From the NCBI RefSeq assembly GCF_024231755.1, contig NZ_JAAEQH010000112.1:1-64000 (forward strand): 64,000 bases of DNA. The letters are read 5' to 3'. This stretch comes from Neptuniibacter sp. GTDB lineage: Bacteria > Pseudomonadota > Gammaproteobacteria > Pseudomonadales > Balneatricaceae. The notes under the pieces are model-generated. The model saw nothing but the letters and a program-made list of their open reading frames with translations. It did no database searches and was not told where the DNA came from. Below, one piece after another: positions 29,230-51,773 of this stretch. A program made the position numbers and the translations under genes. The stretch's first letter is position 1; every line of letters starts with the position of its first letter.

Positions 29230-29991
29230 ATGGCAGTTGACGCAAACTCAGACAATTCAGCTAAATCAGCACCAAGGCACATTGCCATCATTATGGATGG
29301 TAATAATCGTTGGGCTAAAGAACGTCGTTTGCCGGGTTTAGCCGGGCATAAAGCGGGGGTGGATTGCGTTAAATCTGTCATTGAAGGTTGCATAGAGCAG
29401 GGTGTTGGAGCTCTGACTTTGTTTGCCTTTAGTTCAGAGAATTGGAAGCGTCCGCCTCTTGAAGTTAAGGGGTTGATGGAGCTGTTTAAGCTTGCTCTTG
29501 ATCGAGAGTCTAAAAAACTTCAGAAGAATAATATCCGTCTTCGAGTGATTGGCGATAAGAGTGCTTTTAGTCAATCTCTGCAGAAAAAGATTCAGCATGC
29601 TGAAGAACTGACAGCTGGTTGTGATGGTTTGCAACTCAATATTGCTGCAAATTATGGCGGTCGCTGGGATATAGTCAGTGCGGCTAAACGTGTGGCTGAA
29701 GCCTGTGTTGGAGGTGAACTCGCACTCTCTGATATCAGTGAAGAGCTTTTTTCAGAGTATATTTCGCTTTCAGCTTTGCCAGAGCCTGATTTGTGTATTC
29801 GTACTGGTGGTGAGCAGCGAATCAGCAATTTTCTGATATGGCAGTTTGCCTACACCGAGTTTTTCTTTTCCGATCTGTACTGGCCAGATTTTGACAAAAA
29901 CGCCCTTGGCCAGGCTATCGATAGTTATGGTCGTCGTGAACGTCGTTTTGGGCGTACCAGCGAGCAGTTAGAGGCAGAGAAGAATGCTTAA
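29230..29991 (+). CDS. uppS: Undecaprenyl diphosphate synthase
   Basis: 253-residue cis-prenyltransferase that extends farnesyl diphosphate with isopentenyl units to the C55 carrier for cell-wall synthesis. Catalytic Asp in IIMDGNNRWAKERRLPG (residues ~20-36), then FAFSSENWKRP and RTGGEQRISNFLIWQ. No clear ribosome-binding site precedes the ATG, which sits just after a hairpin. It overlaps cdsA by 8 bases. Its IPP substrate is the product of the pathway whose dxr, ispD and ispF genes are missing from these loci. Confidence 0.97.
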   Translation: MAVDANSDNSAKSAPRHIAIIMDGNNRWAKERRLPGLAGHKAGVDCVKSVIEGCIEQGVGALTLFAFSSENWKRPPLEVKGLMELFKLALDRESKKLQKNNIRLRVIGDKSAFSQSLQKKIQHAEELTAGCDGLQLNIAANYGGRWDIVSAAKRVAEACVGGELALSDISEELFSEYISLSALPEPDLCIRTGGEQRISNFLIWQFAYTEFFFSDLYWPDFDKNALGQAIDSYGRRERRFGRTSEQLEAEKNA

Positions 29992-30796
29992 ACAGCGTTT
30001 TTTAACCGCAATCGTTTTGGCGCCTTTGGCTCTGTTTGGTGTTTTTGGCCTCCCATTAGAATATTTTGTCTATCTCTTAGATATGGTCATGCTTCTGGCG
30101 GCTTGGGAATGGGCTAATTTGTCGGGCTTTACTGAAGGTAAAAAGCGTTACAGCTACGTGGCTACAATAGCTGTAATTGTAGCTGCCAGTCATGCCTTCT
30201 ACACTCTTCTACCTGTAAATGAAATTCTACTTATTTCCGTGCTATGTTGGTTTGTTGCGCTATATTGGGTTCTGAAATTTCCTGCTGGAAATGGTTGGCG
30301 CGCAGAATGGCAGAGGGCGTTGATTGGCGTTGTTGTTCTTATGCCTTGTTGGTTTGCCTTTGTGCAGCTGAAAGCCGGGGAAAGTGGTGAGTTACTCATT
30401 CTGCTGCTTTTCTTATTGGTTTGGGGAGCGGATGTCGGCGCGTATTTTTCGGGAAAGAAATTTGGCTGTAACAAGCTGGCCCCAAATGTAAGCCCTGGAA
30501 AAACCCGTGAGGGTGTTTATGGTGGGCTGTTAGCTTGTGTGATTGTGGCACTAATCTTTGCGATCTTTGAGGCCGCTTCAGTGGGGCAGGCAATTGTGCT
30601 GCTATTACTTTCGATTATTGTTGGTTGCTTCTCTGTATTGGGTGATCTGTTTGAAAGCATGATGAAGCGTTACCGTGGTATCAAAGATAGTAGTCAGCTT
30701 TTACCTGGCCATGGCGGGATCTTGGACCGCATCGATAGTCTTACTTCCGCGGCACCTTTGTTTGTCGTGGGTATGCAGTTTATAGCTACAATCTGA
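29984..30796 (+). CDS. cdsA: Phosphatidate cytidylyltransferase
   Basis: 270-residue polytopic membrane enzyme making CDP-diacylglycerol from phosphatidate and CTP, the branch point of phospholipid synthesis. The family signature is complete near the C-terminus (SMMKRYRGIKDSSQ through LLPGHGGILDRIDS, ~220-250). It overlaps uppS by 8 bases and ends 7 bases before rseP. In Pseudomonas dxr lies exactly here, and it is absent. Confidence 0.96.
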   Translation: MLKQRFLTAIVLAPLALFGVFGLPLEYFVYLLDMVMLLAAWEWANLSGFTEGKKRYSYVATIAVIVAASHAFYTLLPVNEILLISVLCWFVALYWVLKFPAGNGWRAEWQRALIGVVVLMPCWFAFVQLKAGESGELLILLLFLLVWGADVGAYFSGKKFGCNKLAPNVSPGKTREGVYGGLLACVIVALIFAIFEAASVGQAIVLLLLSIIVGCFSVLGDLFESMMKRYRGIKDSSQLLPGHGGILDRIDSLTSAAPLFVVGMQFIATI

Positions 30797-30803
30797 ATCG
30801 CCT

Positions 30804-32159
30804 ATGGAACTGCTGCATACGATTGTCATCACAATTATTACCTTGGGTATCTTAGTTACCATTCATGAGTGGGGGCATTTCTATGTCGCCAGAAGGTGTG
30901 GTGTCAAAGTATTGCGTTTTTCTGTTGGATTCGGGAAAGCAATTTATACCTGGAAAGATAAGCAGGACACCGAATATGCAATAGCTACCATCCCCTTGGG
31001 TGGCTATGTGAAAATGTTGGATGAACGCGAAGGTGATGTGCCCGAATCTCAGCTGGAACAGGCATTTAACCGTAAGCCTGTAATGCAGCGTATTGCTATC
31101 GTCGCTGCGGGTCCGTTAGTAAATCTTATTTTCGCGGTTTTTGCTTATTGGTTCATGTTTACGACAGGGGTTTCGACTGTAGCTCCCGTAATTGGCAAAG
31201 TTACCCCGGATACGCCAGCTTACACAGCTAATATCCCTTCTAATGCTGAAATTGTCTCTGTTGATGGTCATAAGACCCTATCTTGGGATGAGGTTAATTT
31301 ACGTTTAGTTGCTCGGGTGGGGGAAAGTGGCCCTCTCCTTATACAGATTAAAGAGGATGGCTCTTCATTAGTTCGAGAGTATCAGATCCAGTTATCTGAC
31401 TGGCGTGTTGATGTTGAAACAGAATCGCCCGTTACAGCTTTAGGTCTTGTACCTTGGCGTCCAGATGTTCCTGCTCAAATAGGTCGTCTGGTTAAAAATG
31501 GTCGTGCGGAATCAGCCGGTTTACAGGTTGGCGATCTTATCACTGCAGCAGATGGTGTGCCTGTTAGGGATTGGTACCACCTGGTCAGTTTTATTCAGGA
31601 AAAGCCTGAACAGCTTCTTGAGCTTGTGGTTTCTAGAGAGGACCAGGAATTAGCCCTATCTATCACACCTGCTGAGAAAATAGCAGATGATGGGCGCCGT
31701 TATGGTTTTATTGGTGCTGCTGCGCAGAGTGTGAGTTGGCCTGAAGAGTATCAAAGAACGCTACAGTATGGTTTCGTTCAGGCGGCAGTCAGTGCACTGG
31801 ATAAAACATTGCAGATGATTTCTTTAACGCTGGAATCGATTTGGAAAATGATCGAGGGCGTTATCTCTGTAAAAAACTTGAGTGGCCCGATAACCATTGC
31901 TAAAGTGGCGAGTGCTTCGGCTTCCTCGGGCTTGGAATCTTATATCAGTTTTCTGGCTTATCTGAGTATAAATTTGGGGATTCTTAATCTGCTGCCTATT
32001 CCAGTTCTCGATGGGGGGCATCTTCTGTACTATACGGTTGAGCTGGTTACAGGTAAGCCTGTAAGCGAGCGAGTACAGATAATTGGCTTAAAGATAGGTA
32101 TGGCACTGTTGTTTACCTTGATGTTTGTAGCTTTGTTTAACGACTTTATGAGATTGTGA
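30804..32159 (+). CDS. rseP: Site-2 intramembrane protease RseP
   Basis: 451 residues. Zinc motif HEWGH (residues ~22-26) lies in the first membrane helix. Two periplasmic PDZ domains follow, then the second metal-ligand motif in NLLPIPVLDGGHLL near residue 395. It cleaves anti-sigma factor RseA in the envelope stress pathway and clears remnant signal peptides. It is 7 bases after cdsA and 47 bases before the chosen bamA start. Confidence 0.97.
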   Translation: MELLHTIVITIITLGILVTIHEWGHFYVARRCGVKVLRFSVGFGKAIYTWKDKQDTEYAIATIPLGGYVKMLDEREGDVPESQLEQAFNRKPVMQRIAIVAAGPLVNLIFAVFAYWFMFTTGVSTVAPVIGKVTPDTPAYTANIPSNAEIVSVDGHKTLSWDEVNLRLVARVGESGPLLIQIKEDGSSLVREYQIQLSDWRVDVETESPVTALGLVPWRPDVPAQIGRLVKNGRAESAGLQVGDLITAADGVPVRDWYHLVSFIQEKPEQLLELVVSREDQELALSITPAEKIADDGRRYGFIGAAAQSVSWPEEYQRTLQYGFVQAAVSALDKTLQMISLTLESIWKMIEGVISVKNLSGPITIAKVASASASSGLESYISFLAYLSINLGILNLLPIPVLDGGHLLYYTVELVTGKPVSERVQIIGLKIGMALLFTLMFVALFNDFMRL

Positions 32160-46693: not shown

Positions 46694-47992
<1,299 letters not shown>

Positions 47993-48060: not shown

Positions 48061-48351
48061 ATGTTTCGTTGGCTGATTTTTCTTCTTATTCTGTTGTTTC
48101 TCGCCCTACAGTATCGTCTGTGGTTTGGAGAGCCGAATCTGCGTGATATCTGGAGTTTAGATGCCAGAATAGAGCTGCAGCAGGATATCAATGAAGAGTT
48201 GAGTCAGCGCAACAGCGAGCTGGAAGCTGAAGTCCAGGATCTGAAAAAGGGACATGCGGCGCTCGAAGAGCGTGCCCGTAGTGAGCTGGGGATGGTGAAA
48301 GAGGATGAGACCTTCTTCCAGTTAGTTGAGCCGGTACAAGAGAAAAAATGA
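48061..48351 (+). CDS. ftsB: Cell division protein FtsB
   Basis: 96 residues: one N-terminal membrane helix (residues ~3-20), then a leucine-zipper-like coiled coil (~35-75), as in FtsB of the FtsQLB complex. The usual neighbour eno is upstream. In most gammaproteobacteria ispD and ispF come next, but here truD overlaps by 4 bases. Confidence 0.93.
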   Translation: MFRWLIFLLILLFLALQYRLWFGEPNLRDIWSLDARIELQQDINEELSQRNSELEAEVQDLKKGHAALEERARSELGMVKEDETFFQLVEPVQEKK

Positions 48352-49394
48352 CTAATCTGCCCGTTGATTTTAAGTATCTGCATGGCGAACCTGAATGTTC
48401 TGCGGTTATCCGCAGTGAGCCAGAAGATTTTCAGGTTGTTGAGCAATTAGGTTTTGAGCCCGAGGGAGAGGGTGAACATGTTTTTCTCTATATCCGTAAG
48501 CGTGGTGAAAATACGGATTGGGTAGCGCGTCAACTGGCTAATTTTGCTCAAATCAGTCCACGTGATGTGAGCTATGCAGGAAAGAAAGACCGTCATGCCG
48601 TTACTGAGCAGTGGTTTTGCGCGAAGTTTCCGATCAAGCGTAATCTTAACTGGAAGCTGTTTGGTGGTGACTCCATTCAGGTGCTTAAGTCTGTTAGGCA
48701 TCCAAGAAAGCTTCGTTTAGGTACTTTGCAGGGTAATCAGTTTCGCCTTCGCCTCAGAGAGGTGACTAATATGGCATCGCTTCAAGAGCGGGTGGCGTTA
48801 GTTGCTGAAAGCGGGGTGCCAAATTATTTCGGAGAACAACGTTTTGGTCATGATTACGGTAATCTGACAAAGGGTATAGCTCTGCTGAAAGGGGAGATTC
48901 AGGAGCGGCAACGGAATAAAAAAGGTATTTATATATCGGCGGTTCGTTCTTGGCTGTTTAATCATCTTTTATCTACACGCATTGAGCAGGGGATGTGGGA
49001 TACTCTGTTGAGTGGCGATGCATTGATGATTGCGGGTAGCCAGAGTTGCTTTGTTGAGGAAGAGATAACTCCTGAATTGTGTCAGCGTTTGATATCCGGT
49101 CAGGTTCATTTGACCGGTCCAATGTGGGGGCGCGGTGAGATGCTTCCCGCTGCTGATGCTGAATCCTGGGAGCGTGATGTTGCTGGTGCTTGGTTAGAAT
49201 TGACAGGGCTATTGGAGCAACTTAGTTTAAAGCAGGAGCGCAGAGCTTTACGCTTAATGCCAGCCCAAATAAATCTTAATCCCATTAGCGATACAGAGTG
49301 TTGGATCGAGTTTGAGCTGGCCTCTGGAACTTTTGCTACCAGTGTACTTAGAGAGCTTTGTGTGACAACTGTGGCAAAAGCCATGGCAGAGTAG
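48348..49394 (+). CDS. truD: tRNA pseudouridine(13) synthase TruD
   Basis: 348 residues. The catalytic Asp is in the GKKDRHAVTEQWF motif (~residue 80), and the family FGEQRFGHDYGN region is present. Modifies U13 of tRNA-Glu. The start overlaps ftsB by 4 bases (ATGA). surE follows after 12 bases. Confidence 0.95.
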   Translation: MTNLPVDFKYLHGEPECSAVIRSEPEDFQVVEQLGFEPEGEGEHVFLYIRKRGENTDWVARQLANFAQISPRDVSYAGKKDRHAVTEQWFCAKFPIKRNLNWKLFGGDSIQVLKSVRHPRKLRLGTLQGNQFRLRLREVTNMASLQERVALVAESGVPNYFGEQRFGHDYGNLTKGIALLKGEIQERQRNKKGIYISAVRSWLFNHLLSTRIEQGMWDTLLSGDALMIAGSQSCFVEEEITPELCQRLISGQVHLTGPMWGRGEMLPAADAESWERDVAGAWLELTGLLEQLSLKQERRALRLMPAQINLNPISDTECWIEFELASGTFATSVLRELCVTTVAKAMAE

Positions 49395-49406
49395 AGATAA
49401 CTATAA

Positions 49407-50156
49407 ATGAAAATATTAATCTCCAACGATGACGGTGTTCATGCACCGGGTCTTGCTGCATTAGCGAAGGCGTTGTCGGAAGTAGCAGAGGTGCTGGTGA
49501 TTGCCCCCGATCGTAATCGTAGCGGTGCCAGTAACTCATTGACTTTGGATAGACCGCTTGAAGCGTTTATGCATGAGAGTGGCTTTATTGGCGTTAATGG
49601 AACTCCTACAGACTGTGTGCATCTAGGGAGTTCCGGTATCTTTGGCTTTGAGCCAGATCTGGTTGTTTCGGGAATCAATGCAGGTCCCAATCTTGGGGAT
49701 GATGTTATTTATTCCGGTACAGTTGCTGCAGCTATGGAAGGTAGGCATCTGCGCTATCCTGCTATTGCTATCTCATCCTCAAGTTTTCATCCGCAGCATT
49801 ATGATGTTGCAGCTCAGGTTGCTAAGGATTTGGTGGCGAATATACAGCAGCTTAATTTAGCTCCGAGGACTGTGCTAAATGTAAATGTCCCGGATTGTCC
49901 TTCGGAAGATATTAAAGGTATTCATATAACCCGATTAGGGCACCGTTCTGCTGCAGATAAACCAGTTGAAGCGGAAGACCCCAGAGGACAGGTTCGTTAT
50001 TGGATTGCAGGTGCGGGTCCGGCTGCCGATAAAGAGCCGGGTACCGACTTCTTTGCTCTTGATGAGCAATATGTTTCTATTACCCCCTTACATACTGATA
50101 TGACGCAATATTCCGGCATGGATAATATTGGGGAGTGGCTGGAGATTAGTTCTTGA
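49407..50156 (+). CDS. surE: 5'/3'-nucleotidase SurE
   Basis: 249 residues. [12 protein letters not shown] at the N-terminus holds the metal-binding Asp-Asp pair, followed by [10 protein letters not shown] and [13 protein letters not shown]. Survival protein hydrolysing nucleoside monophosphates, in the conserved truD-surE-pcm-nlpD-rpoS order. Overlaps pcm by 4 bases. Confidence 0.97.
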
Positions 50157-50821
50157 ACGATCAGCAATTACGCGGAATAGGGATGACTTCGCAGAGAACC
50201 AGGGATCGTTTGATCAACCGGTTACGTGAGCAAGGAATAAAAAGTGAGACGGTGCTAGATGTTATGCGCCAAACTCCTCGACACATTTTTATAGATGAAG
50301 CGTTATCCCATCGTGCCTATGAGGATACTGCTTTGCCTATTGGTTATAACCAGACTATTTCCCAGCCGTTTATCGTGGCTCGCATGACTGAAACGCTATT
50401 GGAGGCCGGTCCTCTTAAGAGAGTTCTAGAAGTGGGAACGGGGTCTGGCTATCAGACTTCTATTTTGGCGCCTTTGGTGGGTGAGTTGTATAGTGTTGAA
50501 CGGATTCGACCTTTGCAGGAAAAAGCGCGTAACCGCCTGAAACTATTAGGTCTGAATAATACTCATCTCAAGCATACTGATGGAGGTATGGGCTGGCCCG
50601 CAAAAGCACCTTTTGATGGTATTCTCGCGGCTTGTGCGCCGGAAGAGGTACCGGAAGAGCTGAAGCAGCAGCTTGCTGTTGGTGGGCGTTTGATTATTCC
50701 TGTGGGTGGCAGTGAAAATCAGGAGCTAAAACTGGTAGTAAGAGAGTCAGAAACTGAATATACAACTCAGGTTCTAGAATGCGTTAAATTTGTTCCTCTC
50801 TTGAGTGGTACGGTTCGATAA
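50153..50821 (+). CDS. pcm: Protein-L-isoaspartate O-methyltransferase
   Basis: 222 residues from a TTG at 50153, with GGAG 8 bases upstream. An ATG at 50183 (Met-Thr-Ser-Gln-Arg-Thr) matches the usual family start and remains possible. SAM-binding motif [15 protein letters not shown] is at ~residue 95, and the [14 protein letters not shown] loop is characteristic. Repairs isoaspartyl residues in aged proteins, fitting the stationary-phase setting next to surE and rpoS. Confidence 0.95.
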
Positions 50822-50831
50822 CGGAGATGTA

Positions 50832-51773
50832 ATGCAGAAACAACGCTCCTTACAAGAGTACTTGGCTCTGTCAGGAAAAGGGATGATGATGGGGGCGGCG
50901 GATGCTGTGCCTGGTGTATCTGGTGGTACCATTGCTTTTATCACTGGAATCTACGAAGAGCTCATCTTTTCGTTAAAGCAGTTTGGTCCAGATGCACTGA
51001 TGATGCTGTTCAAGCAGGGGCCTGCGGCTGCATGGAAGCATGTTAATGGTTCATTCTTGCTGACCCTGTTAGCCGGCATTATTTTCAGTCTTGCGACTAT
51101 CTCTCGTGCTGTTCTGTTCTGGTTGGATAATTACCCTGAACTGCTCTGGTCCTTTTTCTTTGGTCTTATTTTAGCGTCGGTGTGGTCTGTATGCCGACAT
51201 ATAGAGCGTTGGGAAAGTAATGTCTTTACCGCATTTGTAGCGGGTACTGTAGTCGCATATTTGGTGACGTCCATATCACCTACGACAATTGAGGTGACGC
51301 CGCTGTTTGTTTTCCTATCGGGTATGGTGGCTATATGTGCGATGATTCTTCCGGGAATATCTGGGAGTTTTATTTTATTGCTGCTCGGAATGTATACCCC
51401 CGTACTTATGGCAATTAAGAACTTCGAGGTTTTTACTCTAAGTATTTTTGCCTGCGGCTGTGTGATAGGTCTATTAAGTTTCTCACGTGTGCTAAGTTGG
51501 ATGTTCAGCTCTTTTAAAACCACCACGCTGGCACTATTAGGTGGGTTTATGCTGGGTTCTTTGAACAAGGTTTGGCCTTGGAAATATACAACGGCTTATA
51601 CAATTGATCGCCACGGTGAGCAGATTCCTTTGGTGCAGGAAAATATCTCCCCTCTCTCGTTTGAATCTTTAACCGGTCAGCCTGCATTTCTGGCATATGC
51701 TGTTGGCTTGATGATTCTGGGTGCGGGTGTGGTTTACCTGTTGGAGCGATTTGGCCGGAGGTCTGAGGTATAG
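50832..51773 (+). CDS. DUF368 membrane protein, PopT-type polyprenyl-phosphate transporter
   Basis: 313 residues from the ATG at 50832, with GGAG 5 bases upstream; the upstream GTG at 50805 is discounted. Polytopic membrane protein of the DUF368 family, recognised from MMGAADAVPGVSGGTIAFITGIYEE at the start (split here: AADAVPGVSGG and TIAFITGIYEE). DUF368 proteins have recently been described as transporters that return undecaprenyl phosphate across the membrane (PopT). It lies 10 bases after pcm and 4 bases before nlpD, so it is in the stationary-phase operon. Confidence 0.85.
   Translation: MQKQRSLQEYLALSGKGMMMGAADAVPGVSGGTIAFITGIYEELIFSLKQFGPDALMMLFKQGPAAAWKHVNGSFLLTLLAGIIFSLATISRAVLFWLDNYPELLWSFFFGLILASVWSVCRHIERWESNVFTAFVAGTVVAYLVTSISPTTIEVTPLFVFLSGMVAICAMILPGISGSFILLLLGMYTPVLMAIKNFEVFTLSIFACGCVIGLLSFSRVLSWMFSSFKTTTLALLGGFMLGSLNKVWPWKYTTAYTIDRHGEQIPLVQENISPLSFESLTGQPAFLAYAVGLMILGAGVVYLLERFGRRSEV

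Follow-up and report, generated by a model that had tools for sequence, protein, structure and literature searches.

Replacement of the MEP pathway by the mevalonate pathway is a known kind of event in bacteria, and the available passages of PMC13001223 give the mevalonate route as used by 12.03% of 4,249 bacterial species and name IPP and DMAPP as feedback inhibitors of DXP synthase (DXPS, encoded by dxs). A mevalonate cluster is already in print for Marinobacterium jannaschii DSM 6295, M. litorale, and M. stanieri S30; it has the gene order of the 'Candidatus Liberibacter' cluster, of which it is the closest relative (>50% identity), and the available passages of the paper concerned treat neither MEP gene loss in Marinobacterium, nor its family-wide extent, nor the state of dxs (PMC5291501). 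No literature on mevalonate in Neptuniibacter was found, and the mevalonate pathway literature on the Oceanospirillaceae, in its available passages, includes another genus that was reported to be without the pathway. For DXPS of Pseudomonas aeruginosa, a construct in which residues 206-245 were replaced by six glycines had comparable kinetics, and the passages available describe the DXPS loop as poorly conserved and as not shaping the active site (PMC10504544). No publication on dxs in MEP-less mevalonate genomes, or on a DXPS that has lost the loop naturally, appeared among the matches listed in a search that had most subscription journals outside its scope.

This paper describes a window, i.e., the whole stretch of 64,000 nucleotides of DNA that was analysed, together with the genome it belongs to and the relatives of that genome. 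With the bacterial MEP-to-mevalonate replacements in the available passages of PMC13001223 it has in common the difference in pathway, the presence of the mevalonate genes in an operon, and a probably horizontal origin of these genes; unlike those, it concerns an entire family of marine gammaproteobacteria in which the junctions at conserved loci are clean, and the main text of that source, as far as available, nowhere uses the word gammaproteobacteria. The new element is a retained DXP synthase with intact catalytic residues and a missing surface loop in a family without the MEP pathway. Family-wide, this amounts to a natural experiment in which an essential pathway has been exchanged and the absence of its genes can be recognised at conserved loci; the two roles of DXP synthase, in isoprenoid synthesis versus that of vitamins B1 and B6, are set apart, and attention is drawn to a DXPS loop that is given no role in the cited passages.

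MEP Genes Missing at Two Conserved Loci

The features of the two junctions in the window are as follows.

29230..29991, + strand: uppS, consumer of isoprenoid precursors (TIGR00055, 292 bits, cut-off 110)
29984..30796, + strand: cdsA, left of the lost dxr site (NF008635, 209 bits, under its cut-off of 385)
30797..30803, no strand: 7-base gap between cdsA and rseP, dxr missing (from the ORF ends)
30804..32159, + strand: rseP, right of the lost dxr site (NF008046, 495.5 bits, cut-off 477)
46697..47992, + strand: eno (TIGR01060, 674 bits)
48061..48351, + strand: ftsB (NF002058 FtsB, 122.3 bits, cut-off 101)
48348..48351, + strand: ATGA overlap of ftsB and truD, the ispD-ispF site of other gammaproteobacteria (from the sequence)
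48348..49394, + strand: truD (TIGR00094, 203 bits, cut-off 172)
49407..50156, + strand: surE (NF001489, 361 bits)

According to NCBIfam profiles, the gene order in the window is pyrG-eno-ftsB-truD-surE-pcm-(transporter)-nlpD-rpoS. The first-pass annotation had stated that ispD and ispF are both missing between ftsB and truD and that ftsB runs into truD through a 4-base ATGA overlap. Both statements were borne out by the sequence and the profiles, as the 3' end of ftsB (...GAGAAAAAATGA) is read directly at 48351 and the ATG of truD at 48348. That all other genes of the conserved order are kept stands in so far as the expected genes are present, but one extra gene, encoding a transporter, lies between pcm and nlpD. 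This gene, at 50805-51773, encodes a polyprenyl-phosphate transporter (NF052564, 421 bits, cut-off 400). For the NlpD/ActS-like protein upstream of rpoS, the best NCBIfam models score under their own cut-offs. The proposed loss of MEP genes at a second locus was confirmed as well, with rseP starting 7 bases after cdsA and without dxr in between, and the same holds for the presence of uppS, the consumer of isoprenoid precursors, because of which these precursors, IPP included, must still be needed.

The junction between ftsB and truD was surveyed in 80 named TruD loci, with distances taken from BLAST ends. A distance of 5-145 bases was found in 21 of these, belonging to Neptuniibacter, Pontibacterium, Marinobacterium, Amphritea, Nitrincola, the Osedax symbiont Rs1, and an Oceanospirillaceae MAG; among the remaining 59, the distance amounted to 1180-3778 bases in 50 loci and no ftsB was found in nine. 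Start codons could be resolved for 19 of the 21 short-junction loci, giving a spacing of -8 to +120 bases and a 4-base overlap in ten, in one of them via a second candidate start. Since 21 of 80 named loci display short spacing too, the junction without ispD-ispF is neither a chance nor an assembly product. The short-junction loci include M. jannaschii DSM 6295 (L010), one of the strains with a published mevalonate cluster, and an M. stanieri strain other than S30 (L008). The TruD of the window shares 75% and 74% identity with two entries from Neptuniibacter, and the window is therefore regarded as Neptuniibacter-like. NCBI taxonomy places Neptuniibacter in the Oceanospirillaceae; the GTDB family name of the group is presumably Nitrincolaceae. 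The family of the window in the genome sample (f1) and the 21 short-junction named loci appear to represent one family.

Loss of the MEP Pathway in the Genome and the Family

The window's genome (G000) is a Neptuniibacter-like MAG of 384 contigs that is 88.7% complete and 5.9% contaminated, in which no match for IspF (PF02542) or Dxr (PF02670) was detected. Its sole PF01128 match was rejected as IspD, the protein being GlmU (TIGR01173, 624 bits). Profile searches found IspF in 0 of 116 family genomes, including single-contig genomes and 97 genomes with at least 90% completeness and at most 5% contamination, versus 306 of 341 genomes in the order sample, so the IspF search works. For Dxr, 44 family genomes covering 16 genera were screened as a panel and gave no convincing match, a count from which one fragment match in G007 (E 7.6e-4, in a 486-codon frame) was dismissed. 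The search for ispF elsewhere in the genome and the family, for ispD elsewhere in the window's genome, and for family genomes that keep the MEP pathway, judged by IspF in the 116 and by Dxr in the panel, thus returned none of these.

That the MAG consists of this many contigs would fit an alternative in which gaps in the assembly, or relocation, account for the apparent lack of ispD, ispF, and dxr, the MEP route still being functional. This alternative is very improbable and was rejected for ispD and ispF: both junctions are continuous within the window, the single-contig relatives agree with the losses seen in the MAG, and the only IspD candidate is GlmU. Furthermore, a second-type Dxr (DXR-II), as described in the available passages of PMC3847144, would leave IspF unreplaced.

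A Mevalonate Operon in the Window's Genome

Contig C210 of the window's genome carries the genes mvaA-idi2-mvaS-GHMP kinase-mvk-mvaD on one strand, between tolC and polB.

Contig C210: HMG-CoA reductase, mvaA (PF00368, 286 bits, cut-off 27; TIGR00533, 282 bits, under its cut-off of 442)
Contig C210: IPP isomerase, idi2 (TIGR02151, 386 bits, cut-off 281)
Contig C210: HMG-CoA synthase, mvaS (TIGR01835, 520 bits, cut-off 360)
Contig C210: second GHMP kinase (TIGR00549, 149 bits, cut-off 163; TIGR01220 for PMK, 40 bits, cut-off 166)
Contig C210: mevalonate kinase, mvk (TIGR00549, 179.5 bits, cut-off 163)
Contig C210: diphosphomevalonate decarboxylase, mvaD (TIGR01240, 289 bits, cut-off 171)

Five of the six proteins pass a curated cut-off for their own enzyme and the second GHMP kinase does not; 11 of its 12 PDB matches are named mevalonate kinase (best E 2.9e-12), and it is probably the phosphomevalonate kinase, as assigned by its position only. 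HMG-CoA reductase (HMGR) was found in all 116 family genomes and HMG-CoA synthase (HMGS) in all 44 panel genomes. The six-gene order is kept in the 12 longer family loci that were read, one of which (L119) has approximately 3.3 kb between mvk and mvaD. Among 30 short HMGR loci, mvaA is adjoined by idi2 and mvaS in 25, and the other five represent a second, longer HMGR without these neighbours. Broken HMGR frames occur as two pieces in G017 and G019 and as a TAA within the match in G053, and the HMG-CoA synthase of G019 has a TGA inside its frame. Gain of mevalonate genes, which the first-pass annotation had wished to see matched with the MEP losses, is therefore seen as a complete-looking operon in the window's genome and as family-wide HMGR, and its proposal of pathway replacement is supported by these data together with the absence of IspF and of a convincing Dxr. 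As the swap is family-wide, it cannot be mapped inside the family.

In the explanation that we consider very probably correct, the six-gene mevalonate operon would have been gained by an ancestor of the family to which the window belongs, the group around Neptuniibacter and Marinobacterium. The operon is predicted to provide IPP and DMAPP from acetyl-CoA, which would make the MEP route redundant, and the genes past DXP could then have been deleted cleanly, i.e., dxr from between cdsA and rseP and ispD-ispF from between ftsB and truD. DXP synthase would have stayed beside ispA, DXP being needed for vitamins, namely for pyridoxal phosphate (through PdxJ) and thiamine. Relieved of isoprenoid supply, the enzyme would finally have shed 20-38 residues from a flexible loop at its surface, with the catalytic residues preserved. 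The loop would either have been of no further use once its role in MEP-linked control or hand-over had ended, or have vanished passively.

It is improbable, albeit less so than an assembly gap, that IPP is made via mevalonate while other MEP genes (ispE, ispG, or ispH) are kept for signalling or redox purposes. An incomplete MEP pathway beside a complete mevalonate pathway does occur in some Streptococcus and about half of the Enterococcus species (available passages of PMC13001223), but without Dxr and IspF no cell-made substrate should reach IspG, as judged from general pathway knowledge. Under the favoured replacement of the whole route past DXP, fosmidomycin and other drugs directed at the MEP pathway would be expected to leave the family unaffected.

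IspF Absence and Mevalonate Genes in the Order and the Class

The order sample of 341 genomes contains 35 IspF-negative genomes (20 listed and 15 inferred by subtraction), of which 15 belong to the family of the window and 13 to a second family (f39); all of these 28 have HMGR. G327, the single IspF-positive f39 genome of the sample, possesses Dxr and gave no match for HMGR. Two further genomes, G332 (f6) and G439 (f8), have neither IspF nor Dxr and possess a mevalonate operon of the same six genes (L144 and L145), with mvaA being 70% and 67% identical, which suggests horizontal spread. The other five IspF-negative genomes of the order (G166, G231, G256, G380, and G440) are 64-75% complete. 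HMGR was also found in 78 IspF-positive order genomes (108 HMGR positives minus 30 that are IspF-negative); hence, HMGR alone proves no mevalonate route and was rejected as sole marker of the swap. In a class-wide draw of genomes of at least 90% completeness, the window's own excepted, IspF was found in 303 of 370, so its absence is not rare in the class.

A Retained DXP Synthase

DXP feeds the synthesis of pyridoxal phosphate (via PdxJ) and of thiamine, ispA-dxs is a usual gene pair, and E370 is an active-site residue of Escherichia coli DXPS further to those given below. In the window's genome, dxs (592 codons; TIGR00204, 747 bits, cut-off 466) directly follows the gene for farnesyl diphosphate synthase, and a strong DXPS match (265-310 bits) as well as PdxJ were found in all 44 family panel genomes. 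Because dxs is kept, the loss of the MEP pathway begins after DXP.

The residues H49, R99, H299, D427, H431, and E370, in columns chosen by motif rather than from an aligned E. coli sequence, are identical in 19 of 19 family DXPS and in 6 of 6 other DXPS with an altered loop. The first five of these constitute the active-site network of E. coli DXPS in the available passages of PMC12633525. The family DXPS is presumed to be still active, and it apparently serves vitamin synthesis only.

The profile match of the family DXPS is interrupted: its first piece ends at position 187-197 in all 44 panel genomes and, among the matches listed, a second piece resumes near 221-233 in most of them, versus a single piece of about 380-425 bits in full-length, loop-bearing DXPS. 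The best PDB match to the retained enzyme is P. aeruginosa DXPS (PDB 8a29 set; 818 bits, phmmer), and the phmmer alignment places the natural gap where the region was removed from the P. aeruginosa construct. In that construct removal was by design, whereas here it is natural and, in the genomes read, confined to those in which Dxr or IspF was not found.

The Surface Loop and the MEP Pathway

The loop, taken as the segment between the NDNxMSIS motif and LFEEL, was compared in 58 DXPS sequences from 57 genomes. Of the 24 IspF-positive genomes read, 23 have a loop of 55-56 residues, whereas in all 19 family genomes read it spans 17-35 residues, i.e., 20-38 residues are missing. Lengths of 26, 27, 30, and 14 residues were found in G332, G401, G646, and G572, respectively, all of which are IspF-negative, and in G346, which has neither IspF nor Dxr, the loop consists of 48 residues with a dissimilar sequence. 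Among the IspF-positive genomes, the one that deviates is G317 (f16), a single-contig genome with a loop of 43 low-complexity residues, a weak IspF match (E 2.6e-29), no Dxr match, and a mevalonate cluster (L149, L161); weaker IspF matches (E about 1e-33) were also obtained in G470 and G533, whose loops are intact. Expressed by Dxr, 24 of the genomes read are without it, and 23 of these have an altered loop, the lone intact one being that of G231 (74% complete, no IspF); with Dxr, the loop is intact in 10 of 10. Expressed by IspF, it is altered in 24 of 32 negatives and 1 of 24 positives. Taken together, these counts point to a possible tie between the loop and MEP duty.

Among 66 IspF-negative class genomes, 55 are without a real DXPS (best match E 9.5e-14, read as other thiamine enzymes by frame length and score), two have a loop-less DXPS, and in nine the loop is present. 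The last group comprises eight full-length DXPS with an intact loop (G447, G506, G542, G631, G640, G668, G716, and G761) and a DXPS fragment in G610 whose match covers the loop. These genomes are possible counter-examples; gaps or missed IspF may also account for some of them, since G447, G542, G640, G668, and G610 have IspF-positive family members in the class draw, and G631 and G716 have one in another genus.

The view that the segment of 55-56 residues is largely dispensable for catalysis, serves the MEP pathway, and was shed repeatedly in vitamin-only DXPS is attractive and yet rather unlikely. Within that reading, the role of the loop would most likely be control by IPP and DMAPP or hand-over towards Dxr, and the former appeals because both compounds inhibit DXPS by feedback. 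If it were true, these natural, vitamin-only, and probably feedback-free DXP synthases would reveal the purpose of the loop, and feedback-free DXPS would be of interest for isoprenoid and vitamin engineering; as loop-less constructs exist, the question should soon be testable.

There is not far from an even chance that the swap is real and that the loop was lost passively or once, in that a loop-less DXPS was passed on along with mevalonate operons or a loop of generic role was trimmed under relaxed selection, which would reduce the link between loop and MEP pathway to a by-product of shared ancestry. The eight IspF-negative genomes that keep the loop are consistent with this. Speaking against it, the loop is constrained where it is present: in 31 loop-bearing DXPS its length is fixed, its mean identity is 52% versus 60% elsewhere, and L220, K238, and P243 (G207 numbering) are among the positions identical in all 31.

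Phylogeny of DXPS bears on both readings. In a 46-row tree built with the loop columns removed, G646 nests inside loop-bearing DXPS (99/88) and G346 pairs with the loop-bearing G327 (99/97), so that supported branches require at least three changes for altered loops and at least two for short loops, which disagrees with a single loss. However, the AU test does not reject one clade of all short-loop DXPS (p 0.14), the DXPS of G332, a genome with the same operon type, groups with a family member (95/98), and in a 56-row tree, which includes the very long G572, G646 falls outside the loop-bearing group and two changes are enough. The family DXPS form one clade in an 18-row tree and not in the 46- or 56-row trees, which points to long-branch artefacts or to transfer and speaks against taking a purely vertical inheritance of dxs for granted. 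When genomes are labelled by IspF, supported branches yield four independent pairs, of which about 1.5 agree, 2.5 show no difference, and none oppose; labelling by Dxr, in a table that leaves out G231, yields two, both agreeing. These pairs are too few for significance in the paired tests of loop versus label. The association between loop and MEP pathway is thus strong in counts but no more than suggestive in evolutionary replicates.

Mevalonate Genes and DXP Synthase in Family f39

In f39, 10 of 11 DXS-less genomes have PdxJ (G153, G189, G217, G244, G267, G288, G365, G383, G417, and G434), yet no recognisable DXP synthase, which weakens PdxJ as the reason for keeping dxs in the family of the window. 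Elsewhere, G480 (f86) has IspF (E 3.8e-63) and a DXP synthase match at transketolase level only.

In each of the 13 IspF-negative f39 genomes, HMGR is matched within a frame of 752-995 codons. PF01154 matches one of these 13 and was rejected as a universal HMGS marker. The three f39 loci that were read (G417, G401, and G346) carry at least a fused HMGR-mevalonate kinase. In G417 (L147:10386-14957), the fusion joins an HMG-CoA reductase of the NAD type to mevalonate kinase in 752 residues, and its gene immediately precedes cdsA-rseP-bamA, where no dxr is present. Beside the window, this is the one place where the cdsA-rseP junction was read.
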